Part shown: piece by piece, positions 1 to 13,141 of the stretch | Layout: every line of letters starts with the position of its first letter | Numbering within the stretch: the stretch's first letter is position 1 | NCBI GenBank assembly: GCA_017630975.1 | Contig: JAGBUF010000085.1 | Coordinates: forward strand, 1-15,915 | Length of the DNA stretch: 15,915 nucleotides | Reading direction: 5' to 3' | DNA from: Paraprevotella sp. | GTDB taxonomy: Bacteria > Bacteroidota > Bacteroidia > Bacteroidales > Bacteroidaceae | Notes under the pieces: generated by a model | Seen by the model: only the letters and a program-made list of their open reading frames with translations | Databases searched by the model: none | What the model was told of the DNA's origin: nothing | Made by a program: the position numbers and the translations under genes

Positions 1-3000
1 GATGTATGAAGTGGCACCACCATTGTTTGATGCACGACCAATACCACTGAATACGTATGTTCCGGCTGGGAGTGTGAATGTTTGGCTATTGGCAAAATCA
101 CCATTAGCATTATTATCGTAATATTTATTTCCGGTATTACCTAAGCCGTCATAATGTTGACTTTCTAATTGGCTCGTCCAATTTCCGTCCCAGTCGCCAA
201 GAGTTGCAACACCTTCATAGGTTTCCATCACGTAATTATAATCCAAAACTTTGAAGTTCTGCATAGCTAGGATTTCAGCAGATGGGTCTTCCTTAGTTCC
301 ACCATTCCAAACAGCTTGAGCTGTGTTGATGGCTGTGGTATAGTCTGTTTGGTTGCTTTCTACTACTAATGTATATGCGTTAGCATAACCAATTTCAGTC
401 TGTAAGTTCTTGTACACAGCAATAGAAGCTTCTACTGCATCATTTGCTGCGGTAAGTTCTTCAGTAATTATTTCGAATTGGTCGTAACTATCTGTTATGT
501 CTTTTGCTTCAGCAGCTGCTGCAACCTTTTCTATACATGTTTTCCAAAACTCGGTATAAAGTTTACTGATGCAGCCATTTTCTGCATCATTAAAGTTTGC
601 TTCAAAGCGGTCAAGTTGTACTACTAATGGTGCCTTAGCATCATTGTATGCAGTACGCCATGCGTTGGCATTAGCTACGGCAGTGTTCAAAGCGTCAATT
701 TTAGCTTTCATTTCAGCACCTGTTGTTACAGACATATTTATGGCATTGTTTAATGCTGTATTTTCGTCTATACCCATTGGTTTTGTGTTAACCAAAGCTT
801 GTGCAGGTGCCAATGCGGCATCAAGTCCACTTTGGTTAGCTTTCATATAGGTCTCTTCGGTCATTTGAAGGGTGTAGTCGCCAAATGAAACCCATTGATG
901 ATTGCTACTAGCTTCAGCATGTACGGCAATTTTTACTGTAGATTCTTCATTAAGAGTAAACTTAACATAGCGCCATTGCCATCCATAACCATTTCCGTTG
1001 TTAGCAAATCCGTCTTCGTCTTCTGGGTCAAAACTTGTTTCACCGGCCTTGTCTATACCACGTGCATTATTGCTTGCAGGGAAGTCTTCTACCGTTCCAA
1101 GAGTAGTCTCACCAACTGAGGCAATGAGTCGTAATGTAGTACCGCCACTTCTACGTCCGGCAACTTTAAATACATATTCTCCACTAGGAAGTGTTACGTC
1201 TTGGTCAAAGTCTATAGACCATGAATTTGCACCCCAACCTTGACCGTTAGAGTCATCTTGATTCATGTAATTACGTTTTGTACCACTCCAATGCTCATTG
1301 CTGAATGTCGCTGCTTGAGTGTTTACACCGGTAGAATTCCATGTGTCACTAAGTTTTACGTCATAGGTAAAGTTGTTGGTAACATAATTATATGTTGCAA
1401 CTTCAAGTTCTTGGAATATAGTTTCAGCATCGGCTGTGATTGTTCCATTATCGTACGCTGTTTGATAGTCTGCAGCAATACTTTCGTCAATAGTATTTGC
1501 TTTTGCAATGTATGTGGGGATTTTTTCATAGTTTTCAACAGAAGCCTTAGCCGCAGGGATGACATTTTGTAAAGCTAATATCATGGCATCTAATTCTGTC
1601 GGAATTTCAGATGTTGGATCAGCTCCTTCAATAGCAGCGGTTAAATTAGTTTGTATTTCTGCATTCATTTTTCCGGAAATGGTTTCTGCTTCAGCTTTTA
1701 GTGTTGCAACAGTTGCTTGTAGTTCACTTACATCAAGTCCTGCTGTGTAAGAAAGTTTAATGTTATCAATACCCATCCAACGGTACGTTTCAACAATTGA
1801 TTTTAGACCGATTTCTAATTTGCCTTCAGCATCATCTATCTTAATCTCTTCAACGGTGTATAAAGTAGGTGTGGCACTATTAACCAAAGTGGTTTGTTCA
1901 TTACCATATAAATATACTGCATCGGTATCAGTTTTGCCATCTGCCAATTGGTCTCTAAATGCAGCTGCAGTCAAAGAATAATATCCGGCAGGCAAACCTG
2001 TTATATTTTGATAGATAGAACCTTTGTATGATTCCCACTTCCATGTTTCATAGAAATTTCCTGTAATTGCGCCCCCTTGATTAGAAGCTTTACCAAAATT
2101 AGGTGCACCTGTATTATGAGACCATCCTGTTACATCTACATCAAAATAGGGATTAACGACAAAGAATGTCATGTCAAAAGGAAAACCTTCAGTTGGCTTA
2201 GCCCCGCTTGTAACATAAGTTTGACGTGCGCTCTCTAATGTGTTGTATGCCTCTGTATATGCCACTATGTCAGAGGAAGTAAAAGTTTCATTTATGCTTT
2301 CTGCAGCACTTATGGCATTGTTAAAAGTGGTTCTATCTCCTTCGGTTTTAGGTGTTGAGTTGGTTGAATGACTTTTACATAATGTAATGAGCGCATTCAT
2401 GTTTAAATAACTTTTAGCAATCGCATCATAATTATTAATGATAGCAGAGATTTCTTCGTTTGCTTTAGTTAAATCCGTCTTGGAGGAAGGTGCGGTAGTA
2501 TACTTGTTTTTTAATGCTTCAATTTCATCTACAAACGCAGAAGGAATATTTTCTGTGTTTAATGCGGTCAATGCTGCGTAGTTTGTATTGAACGCATCTA
2601 ATAATATTGATACATCTGCACCTTTATAAGTTAAACGGAAATGGTCGGCTTTATACCACCAATGCCCATCCGCATTATATGTACCATCGTCATTACCTCC
2701 GACTATACCGACTGTCGCTTGTCCGTTAATAACTTTAAATTCGTATGACATCTCATGGAACTTACTTTTATCTCCATCACTGATGGTATATACATTGCTG
2801 TGTTCACCATTAGCTAATAGGAAAAAGTCAGGCGTAGTGCCACTCCCATCACCCGATGCTACTAATGCCTTGAGTTCATATATACCATTAGGTAGGTTGG
2901 TTACTGTTTGTGTCAAAGGTACACCTCTCCACCATGTATTGAATAGGTATGAGCCATGAACTCCGGTAGTTTTGTATGTATTATTTGAGTTTTCTCGTAT

Positions 3001-3723
3001 GCCGGTATCTGACGAAGTATTGTATGTCCATCCTGTGCCATCACCCTTTTCAAATGACGGATTTGTCATGTATGAGGTATAGTCTGCAGGATTTGATTCA
3101 GAAATATCATCTACAGAAATTGAAGAAAGCTTCAAATGACTGATATATAAAGTAGGGGTGTTGGTATGTGCAATATTAGTTGATCCACTACCTATACCTA
3201 ATGAAAATGTTACTTTTTTAGCAGTAGGCACAGCAAATGTGATTGTATGTGTAGTCCAACTAGTACCACCATTCATCCATTCATTAGATTTGTCAATACA
3301 AGCAGCATCACCAACTTGTACGTAGCACAAATTTTCATACGCTCCTGCTGTTGTATTGGTGTTAGTGTTTTGTACGTCAAAAGTTAATGAGTAGACACCT
3401 GCGGGTAATTCTTGTAAAGATTCTTGGCGATAAGAAGAATAGCTTCCTCCCCAACGAACCTCAAAACCGAAACATGATTCTGTAGCTAAATGTGTTGCAT
3501 CAACAGTTGCTGCTGTCCCGACATCATTTCTCACCTTATATTCTCCTATTTTCCCAGAACCAATATCACTATATGAACCTGACTTATATACAGTCCATCC
3601 ATCAGTAGAAGAGAAATCAGCATTTTTTATATATGTGCTTGTCACATCTGTTTGTGCTGAAAGCGAAGTCGCTCCCAACAGCGCAAAAACTATTGCGCAT
3701 AATTTCTTATATATCTTTTTCAT
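1..3723 (-). CDS. Giant secreted modular protein, putative carbohydrate/ligand-binding (C-terminus off window)
   Basis: The frame is open without a stop from ATG at 3723 to the left edge: 1241 codons, C-terminus missing. The N-terminus is a signal peptide: a KKIYKK basic start, a hydrophobic core, then SLSAQ (cleavage near residue 25). Five modules follow, each with a Gly/Trp-rich beginning and an LPxGxY strand motif: LPAGVY at 106, LPNGIY at 277, LPAGYY at 577, LPSGEY at 845 and LPAGTY at 1218. They look like jelly-roll, CBM-like domains at about 28-200, 215-365, 516-658, 781-953 and 1160 onward. Ala/Thr/Glu-rich helical spacers resembling FIVAR-type repeats lie at about 365-515, 660-780 and 953-1160. 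No catalytic motif is visible, so binding or adhesion at the cell surface is inference. The gene begins 19 bp after the phosphoesterase stop and probably shares its transcript. Codon use is AT-rich, unlike pflB. A C-terminal sorting domain or enzyme could lie off the edge. Confidence 0.85.
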   Translation of the reverse strand, partial: MKKIYKKLCAIVFALLGATSLSAQTDVTSTYIKNADFSSTDGWTVYKSGSYSDIGSGKIGEYKVRNDVGTAATVDATHLATESCFGFEVRWGGSYSSYRQESLQELPAGVYSLTFDVQNTNTNTTAGAYENLCYVQVGDAACIDKSNEWMNGGTSWTTHTITFAVPTAKKVTFSLGIGSGSTNIAHTNTPTLYISHLKLSSISVDDISESNPADYTSYMTNPSFEKGDGTGWTYNTSSDTGIRENSNNTYKTTGVHGSYLFNTWWRGVPLTQTVTNLPNGIYELKALVASGDGSGTTPDFFLLANGEHSNVYTISDGDKSKFHEMSYEFKVINGQATVGIVGGNDDGTYNADGHWWYKADHFRLTYKGADVSILLDAFNTNYAALTALNTENIPSAFVDEIEALKNKYTTAPSSKTDLTKANEEISAIINNYDAIAKSYLNMNALITLCKSHSTNSTPKTEGDRTTFNNAISAAESINETFTSSDIVAYTEAYNTLESARQTYVTSGAKPTEGFPFDMTFFVVNPYFDVDVTGWSHNTGAPNFGKASNQGGAITGNFYETWKWESYKGSIYQNITGLPAGYYSLTAAAFRDQLADGKTDTDAVYLYGNEQTTLVNSATPTLYTVEEIKIDDAEGKLEIGLKSIVETYRWMGIDNIKLSYTAGLDVSELQATVATLKAEAETISGKMNAEIQTNLTAAIEGADPTSEIPTELDAMILALQNVIPAAKASVENYEKIPTYIAKANTIDESIAADYQTAYDNGTITADAETIFQELEVATYNYVTNNFTYDVKLSDTWNSTGVNTQAATFSNEHWSGTKRNYMNQDDSNGQGWGANSWSIDFDQDVTLPSGEYVFKVAGRRSGGTTLRLIASVGETTLGTVEDFPASNNARGIDKAGETSFDPEDEDGFANNGNGYGWQWRYVKFTLNEESTVKIAVHAEASSNHQWVSFGDYTLQMTEETYMKANQSGLDAALAPAQALVNTKPMGIDENTALNNAINMSVTTGAEMKAKIDALNTAVANANAWRTAYNDAKAPLVVQLDRFEANFNDAENGCISKLYTEFWKTCIEKVAAAAEAKDITDSYDQFEIITEELTAANDAVEASIAVYKNLQTEIGYANAYTLVVESNQTDYTTAINTAQAVWNGGTKEDPSAEILAMQNFKVLDYNYVMETYEGVATLGDWDGNWTSQLESQHYDGLGNTGNKYYDNNANGDFANSQTFTLPAGTYVFSGIGRASNNGGATSYI

Positions 3724-7762: not shown

Positions 7763-7896
7763 TTTAACGATTAACCTTAACGTTGACTTTAACTGTTATC
7801 GTTATAGTTACCGTTATAGTTACCGTTATCGTTATCGTTACCGTTACCGTTATCGTTACCGTTACCGTTATCGTTATCGTTAAAGTTGGTGTTACT
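7763..7896 (+). repeat. Hexamer array 1 (GTTAYC type), pflB-pflA intergenic
   Basis: From 7795 to 7896 there are 17 back-to-back 6-bp units without any phase slip: 14 GTTAYC/GTTATA units, then GTTAAA, GTTGGT and GTTACT. The last unit ends directly at the pflA ATG (7897). Upstream, 7763-7794 holds degenerate TTAACx/TTGACT units in a shifted phase. It belongs to the same family as the arrays at 9842-9915 and 11648-11719; a 22-base segment (7777-7798) is repeated exactly at 9874-9895. Because the unit is a multiple of three, the pflA reading frame stays open back through the array, but this is not believable coding sequence. Confidence 0.93.
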
Positions 7897-9844: not shown

Positions 9845-9915
9845 AACGGAAACTTTAGTTATTAACTTTAACTTTAACGTTGACTTTAACTGTTACCGTT
9901 ATCGTTACCGTTGTA
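9842..9915 (+). repeat. Hexamer array 2, convergent intergenic region
   Basis: From 9861 the units ATTAAC, TTTAAC, TTTAAC, GTTGAC, TTTAAC run in phase to 9890. After a one-base slip, GTTACC, GTTATC, GTTACC and GTTGTA follow from 9892 to 9915; 9842-9860 is a more degenerate beginning. The segment 9874-9895 is identical over 22 bases to 7777-7798 in array 1. It lies just after the plus-strand terminator and between convergent genes, so it has no obvious promoter role here. The stretch 9916-9986 holds nothing I recognise. Confidence 0.85.
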
Positions 9916-11559: not shown

Positions 11560-11647
11560 CAAAAACACAAATTTGTTTTATCCTTGATAGTTTTATTTAC
11601 AACTATATATTATAACCCCTCTATCACATCAGAGTATTCTTTCTAAA

Positions 11648-11719
11648 GTTCCCGTTCCCGTTCCCGTTATCGTTAAAGTTAATGTTATTGTTCCCGTTAT
11701 CATTAAAGTTAAAGATAAA
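11648..11719 (+). repeat. Hexamer array 3, upstream of the ffh promoter
   Basis: Twelve 6-bp units run in perfect phase: GTTCCC three times, GTTATC, GTTAAA, GTTAAT, GTTATT, GTTCCC, GTTATC, ATTAAA, GTTAAA, GATAAA. The array stops 4 bp before the TTG -33 element of the ffh promoter. It has the same orientation and unit length as arrays 1 and 2, but includes GTTCCC units not seen in them. Confidence 0.9.
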
Positions 11720-11788: not shown

Positions 11789-12832
11789 ATGTTCGACAAT
11801 TTAAGTGAAAGACTGGAACGCTCGTTCAAGATATTGAAGGGTGAAGGAAAGATCACGGAAATTAACGTGGCCGAGACACTCAAGGATGTGCGTAGAGCCT
11901 TGCTCGATGCCGACGTAAACTATAAAGTGGCCAAGACATTTACTGATACGGTAAAGCAAAAGGCTTTGGGGCAGAATGTGCTCACAGCCGTTCGTCCAAG
12001 TCAGTTGATGGTGAAGATTGTGCATGATGAACTGGCTGAGTTGATGGGTGGCGAAACGGCTGAATTGAACCTAAGCGGTCATCCCACTGTCATCTTGATG
12101 GCAGGTTTGAATGGTGCGGGTAAGACTACACTGTCCGGAAAATTGGCGCTGATGCTCAAGAGTAAGAAACGCAAGAACCCGTTGTTGGCAGCTTGTGATA
12201 TCTATCGTCCGGCTGCTATTGACCAGCTGAAAGTGCTGGGTGAACAAATCGGAATTCCGGTATATAGCGAACCTGAGAACAAGGATGCGGTACAGATTGC
12301 ACAAAACGCTATTAAGGAAGCCAAGTCGAGAGGTTACGATACGGTGATTGTCGATACAGCCGGTCGTTTGGCTGTGGATGAGCAGATGATGCAAGAGATT
12401 GCTGCCATTAAGGAAGCGATTCAGCCGACAGAAACGTTGTTCGTGGTGGATGCCATGACGGGTCAAGATGCTGTGAATACGGCTAAGGAATTTAACGACC
12501 GTTTGGATTTCGATGGAGTAGTGCTGACCAAATTGGACGGTGATACCCGTGGTGGTGCGGCTTTATCTATTCGTACAGTGGTGAACAAACCCATCAAGTT
12601 TGTTGGTACCGGCGAGAAGATGGAGGCTATTGATCAATTCCATCCATCACGTATGGCCGACCGTATTCTGGGAATGGGTGACATCGTATCATTGGTAGAG
12701 AAAGCTCAAGAACAATACGATGAGGAAGAGGCACGTCGCTTGCAAAAGAAGATAGCCAAGAACCAATTCGATTTCAATGACTTCATGGCACAAATTCAGC
12801 AAATCAAGAAAATGGGTAATTTGAAGGATTAG
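11789..12832 (+). CDS. ffh: Signal recognition particle protein Ffh, N-terminal (NG) part, ended by an in-frame TAG
   Basis: 347 codons then TAG. This is the SRP54-type GTPase that binds 4.5S/SRP RNA and signal sequences and docks with FtsY at the membrane. The N domain covers about residues 1-95. The G domain has the P-loop GLNGAGKTT (106-114), DTAGRL (189-194), TKLDGD (247-252) and the closing LGMGD near 295. The ORF runs into the first M-domain helix ([22 protein letters not shown]) and stops there; family members continue directly into the finger loop and RNA-binding helices. Those are encoded in the same frame immediately after the TAG, so the full gene would be 11789-13141 (450 codons), normal Ffh length. 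Without the rest, the product could bind GTP but not signal peptides or SRP RNA. The start follows AAGG 8 nt upstream of the ATG. The cause may be sequencing error, nonsense mutation or real splitting. Confidence 0.93.
12830..12832 (+). other. ffh: In-frame TAG codon interrupting ffh (codon 348)
   Basis: The codons read AAG GAT TAG GCA AGC ATG, i.e. K-D-stop-A-S-M, inside the conserved M-domain stretch KMGNLKD-x-ASMIPGVG. From general knowledge of Bacteroidales Ffh the missing residue is expected to be Leu; TTG is the common Leu codon in these genes and differs from TAG by one base. None of the other six genes with a visible stop ends in TAG (five TAA, one TGA), and the downstream part of ffh ends in TAA. 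Confidence 0.9.
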
Positions 12833-12838
12833 GCAAGC

Positions 12839-13141
12839 ATGATTCCGGGAGTGGGCAAGGCCATAAAGGATATTGATATGGATGATGATGCATTCAAGAG
12901 TATAGAGGCCATCATTCAAAGTATGACACCGAAAGAGCGCGAAAAACCGGAAATTCTCAATACCAGTCGTCGAAACCGTATCGCGAAGGGTTCCGGTACC
13001 AATATTCAAGAGGTGAATCGACTCATCAAACAATTCGATCAGATGCGTAAGATGATGAAGATGATGACCGGCAGTAAGATGGGGCAGATGATGGGCAAGA
13101 TGCCCAACCTTCCCGGTATGCCGAAAATGCCTAAGTTTTAA
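12839..13141 (+). CDS. ffh: Ffh C-terminal M-domain part, downstream of the in-frame TAG
   Basis: 100 aa from ATG 12839, in the same frame as the upstream Ffh part and separated from its stop by 6 nt. It encodes the finger loop (MIPGVGKAIKDIDMDDDAF), the helices after it and the SRP-RNA-binding motif TSRRNRIAKGSG (fragment residues 42-53, full-length 392-403). A Met-rich tail (MMKMM, MGQMMGKMPNLPGMPKMPKF) typical of the hydrophobic M domain follows. An AAGGA string at 12824-12828 lies 10 nt before the ATG, so termination-reinitiation is conceivable, although Bacteroidetes depend little on Shine-Dalgarno. The conserved, undecayed sequence shows it has been under selection as part of Ffh until recently or still is. 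It lacks the first M-domain helix, so as a separate protein it would have to reassemble with the NG part. Confidence 0.85.
   Translation: MIPGVGKAIKDIDMDDDAFKSIEAIIQSMTPKEREKPEILNTSRRNRIAKGSGTNIQEVNRLIKQFDQMRKMMKMMTGSKMGQMMGKMPNLPGMPKMPKF

Follow-up and report, generated by a model that had tools for sequence, protein, structure and literature searches.

The Ffh (SRP54) protein is essential in most bacteria. The Ffh structures of PDB entries 7o5b (chain g) and 2xxa (chain A) align over the N, G, and M domains when queried with P0121, an intact homologue described below, and neither is interrupted at the place equivalent to codon 348 of the gene considered here. The most closely comparable proteins are the Ffh of the Bacteroidales, particularly those of Paraprevotella, and the ffh gene in the window (the whole 15,915-nucleotide stretch of DNA that was analysed) has the same domain order, start, and end; it is 96% identical to the gene of its nearest relative, G013, and agrees with P0121 at 448 of the 449 positions other than the stop. 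Unlike all of these, the window has one TAG at codon 348, which among the sequences examined was found in its own assembly only. A sequence-only reading of the window had noticed this codon and offered four options for it: a sequencing or assembly error or a strain mutation, a two-piece SRP54 generated by reinitiation, amber suppression or readthrough, and a second intact ffh elsewhere in the genome.

Layout of the interrupted ffh frame

The ffh frame (11789-13141, plus strand) opens with an ATG at 11789, runs for 347 codons to the in-frame TAG at 12830-12832, continues for a further 102 sense codons and closes with a TAA at 13139-13141. Its 5' part (11789..12832, plus strand, ending with the TAG) encodes the N and GTPase domains and the opening portion of the M domain; the Pfam matches to SRP54_N (residues 5-82, 71 bits) and SRP54 (residues 99-295, 259.8 bits) are both above their cut-offs and identify it as SRP54/Ffh. 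The remainder (12839..13141, plus strand, ending with the TAA) would be an ORF of 100 aa if the ATG at 12839 were its start, and it corresponds to positions 26-91 of the 91 in the SRP_SPB M-domain profile. When the contigs of the genome were searched with this profile, the M-domain match crossed the TAG in one frame with 129.2 bits, the SRP_SPB stretch sitting behind the stop. The stop thus interrupts the M domain close to its beginning, outside the linker. In its anatomy of the locus the sequence-only reading was accurate: the reading frame and the Pfam domains bear out a TAG that splits ffh and an M-domain frame that goes on to a TAA, the cut does fall inside the M domain, and the AAGGA (12824..12828, plus strand) and the ATG at 12839 are where it had placed them.

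Compared with G013, 95 of the 102 codons that follow the stop specify the same residue (52 identical and 43 synonymous codons) and 7 are changed; judged by this comparison, the frame after the TAG is conserved far beyond chance. The ratio of synonymous to non-synonymous substitutions against the same relative is 153:12 before the stop and 43:7 after it, counts that are unable to date the stop because most of the divergence is likely to be older than the stop itself. Apart from the TAG, there is no visible damage in the window copy of ffh.

Several other characteristics of the window can be recorded here. In the P-loop of its ffh (12104-12130), GLNGAGKTT, the third residue is Asn, as it usually is in FtsY; the Ffh of 7o5b and that of 2xxa carry Gln there. 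Among the 35 relative loci that could be matched by pattern (56 of the 91 were unmatched) the residue is Asn in 14 and Gln in 21; the 137 listed proteins that bear the pattern divide into 109 with Asn and 28 with Gln. Tracts of a hexamer, GTTNNC/TTAACN, lie between large ORFs at 7764-7883, 9862-9907, and 11644-11712, the last being a short distance upstream of ffh. Runs of at least five GTTNNN units occurred 4 times in 414,601 sampled bases of the window's own genome and 3 times in 1,146,222 bases of G013, and in none of three mononucleotide shuffles of the own-genome sample. On the minus strand, positions 1-3723 hold a frame that stays open for 1241 aa or more, runs off the end of the contig and has, as judged by eye, a signal-peptide-like start and repeated modules.

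Codon 348 in relatives and in near-identical proteins

The sequence-only reading had proposed that codon 348 be compared in close relatives, and the outcome of this comparison is uniform: position 348 is a leucine codon, with no internal stop, in all of the 91 relative loci examined (11 loci other than the window from a first search and the best 80 of 592 confirmed, two sets that may share genomes). All 91 are uninterrupted across this codon, so that the two pieces do not appear as separate genes in the relatives. Of the 17 other genomes in the genus, 15 have an uninterrupted ffh match that is complete or almost so, reaching at least residue 441; the exceptions are G015, where the ffh match is partial, and G010, where the match is just 31% identical and FtsY-like. 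None of the 16 ffh matches from these 17 genomes has an internal stop. Relatives with a full ffh gave one such match each, and their second match, where present, is 29-37% identical and FtsY-like; stop marks are also seen in several of these weak second matches. G019 and G030 were considered as further cases of an interrupted ffh and rejected, each having one TAA, near the C-terminal end, that is a normal terminal stop.

Two other contigs encode very nearly the Ffh of the window in intact form, both with leucine at position 348. The longer protein, P0121 (450 aa, on a contig of 2631 bases), differs from the window frame at residue 134 as well as at the stop. Since residue 134 also differs, P0121 is not the allele of the window contig itself and is no proof that the gene of this strain is intact. 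The shorter one, P0001 (162 aa, on a contig of 1016 bases), has position 348 as its sole mismatch, with 0 differences at its other 161 positions. A third protein, P0002 (87 aa, on a contig of 1883 bases), is identical to the window frame over its length and begins inside the M domain; its start may reflect either the edge of the contig or a further occurrence of the stop. Among 258 listed homologues, leucine precedes the motif that follows position 348 in all 189 of the proteins that match this motif. The normal product of the lineage is most probably a full-length Ffh of 450 residues with leucine at position 348.

TAG usage and translation machinery in the host genome

The window forms contig C167 of a draft genome that resembles Paraprevotella and comprises 383 contigs with 1,824,316 bases in total; its completeness is 70.7% and its contamination 3.83%. 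Among named organisms its nearest relatives are Paraprevotella: the first 347 residues of the Ffh are matched at 95% by P. clara YIT 11840, and among the matches listed the closest named full-length proteins have source names that read Paraprevotella sp. In a family search of this approximately 71% complete genome, the M-domain and SRP54 GTPase families matched once each, both in the window, and the second intact ffh that had been suggested was not found. The same search gave no match to ftsY, and a separate one revealed just one member of the release-factor family and no second release factor; absence from so incomplete a genome therefore means little. Neither was the SRP RNA (RF00169) matched in the own genome, a result that says little because 3 of 14 control genomes, Bacteroides included, were also without a match.

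RF1 is intact in the own genome, its protein carrying the PxT motif of this factor. The use of stop codons was surveyed by aligning 764 ORFs, predicted from 1,146,222 bases of G013 in 60 stretches, to 81 own-genome contigs (414,601 bases, 39,788 of them N). At a 70% identity cut there were 92 alignments, covering 32,980 residues, and these contained 2 in-frame stops, one being the TAG of ffh and the other a TAA that falls on residue 3 of a different reference ORF. Of the 75 terminal stops readable at this cut, 58 are TAA, 11 TGA, and 6 TAG, and all six TAG fall exactly at the end of the relative's gene. TAG is thus a working stop in this genome.

Relaxing the cut to 50% identity gave 118 alignments with 7 in-frame stops in 6 reference ORFs, ffh included. 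The other five ORFs were examined as possible damaged genes and rejected: in L260, L124, and two ORFs of L229 the stop lies within about the first 20 reference residues and the own ORF starts after it, and on L155 the reference ORF, which has two stops, lies antisense to a continuous ORF of 1535 aa. Among the 118 sampled alignments ffh is therefore the only one with a stop in the body of the gene. Because no other sampled orthologue has such a stop, the assembly is not generally error-ridden, a point that counts against an assembly error as the source of the TAG. A general recoding of TAG was rejected as well, given the intact RF1, the 6 TAG among 75 terminal stops and the interruption of the ffh body alone.

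Origin of the stop codon

The reading that we favour, with a probability of about 0.92, is a defect confined to this single codon: the TAG would be either a wrong consensus base, the metagenome assembly being fragmented, or a rare strain allele without function. This option fits because an intact, near-identical protein is encoded on two other contigs. Between its two forms we would lean somewhat towards the error over the dead allele, and this preference is a guess. A single stop of this kind, picked by a scan over many windows, would presumably need no special mechanism.

The other options of the sequence-only reading gained nothing from the analysis. Amber suppression or readthrough, by which a full-length Ffh would be made from the TAG allele, accords with the intact and conserved frame after the stop and with the expectation, from the essentiality of the gene, that a true ffh null would be lethal; a suppressor tRNA might also be missing from an incomplete genome. 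However, RF1 is intact, TAG is a normal stop elsewhere and no other sampled gene body carries one, and the proposed check for tRNA genes with a CUA anticodon found none among the 26 tRNAs read by ARAGORN at 27 tRNA matches (the 27th being at a contig edge) in this approximately 71% complete genome. We consider this explanation very improbable. The proposal of a two-piece SRP54, in which an NG part and an M-domain part translated by reinitiation at the ATG at 12839 are separate products that assemble on SRP RNA, draws on the position of that ATG, 6 nt past the stop, and on the intact remainder of the M-domain frame. But the intact P0121 has the downstream Met as one of its ordinary residues, and the AAGGA is no distinct signal, being simply a part of the Lys-Asp codons 346-347. 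In the 47 of the 91 relative loci that were matched by motif, these two codons are AAAGAC in 18, AAAGAT in 13, AAGGAC in 11, and AAGGAT in 5, so AAGGA is spelled in 16 of 47 relatives whose genes are uninterrupted. Moreover, the C-terminal piece would be without the first 25 positions of the M-domain profile, and near-identical intact copies exist. No protein of 330-360 aa was present among the 258 listed homologues (the best 120 per search, so that rarer truncated forms are possible). A literature search on split SRP returned no papers. Such an arrangement is, in our estimation, less credible even than suppression.

Equally slight is the chance that the window copy is a pseudogene and that an intact second ffh resides in sequence that the draft lacks. 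In favour of this, the genome is incomplete, FtsY, seen as a second, weaker match in most relatives, is without a match in it, and just one release-factor family member was found; against it stand the single ffh of the relatives that have a full copy, their second match being FtsY-like, and the lack of other visible damage in the window copy.

We found no evidence of either a two-piece SRP54 or a programmed readthrough, and the feature is an ordinary one. An isolated defect of the kind favoured here carries a caution: a lone stop that interrupts an essential gene in a draft assembled from many fragments should first be compared with near-identical proteins in public databases, and a mechanism proposed only afterwards. 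That the sole ffh of a living Paraprevotella strain carries an amber codon, with Ffh made either by low-level readthrough or as two pieces assembled on SRP RNA, seems highly unlikely. If the TAG were nonetheless real and fixed, it would offer a natural experiment on the amount of intact Ffh that a bacterium requires.
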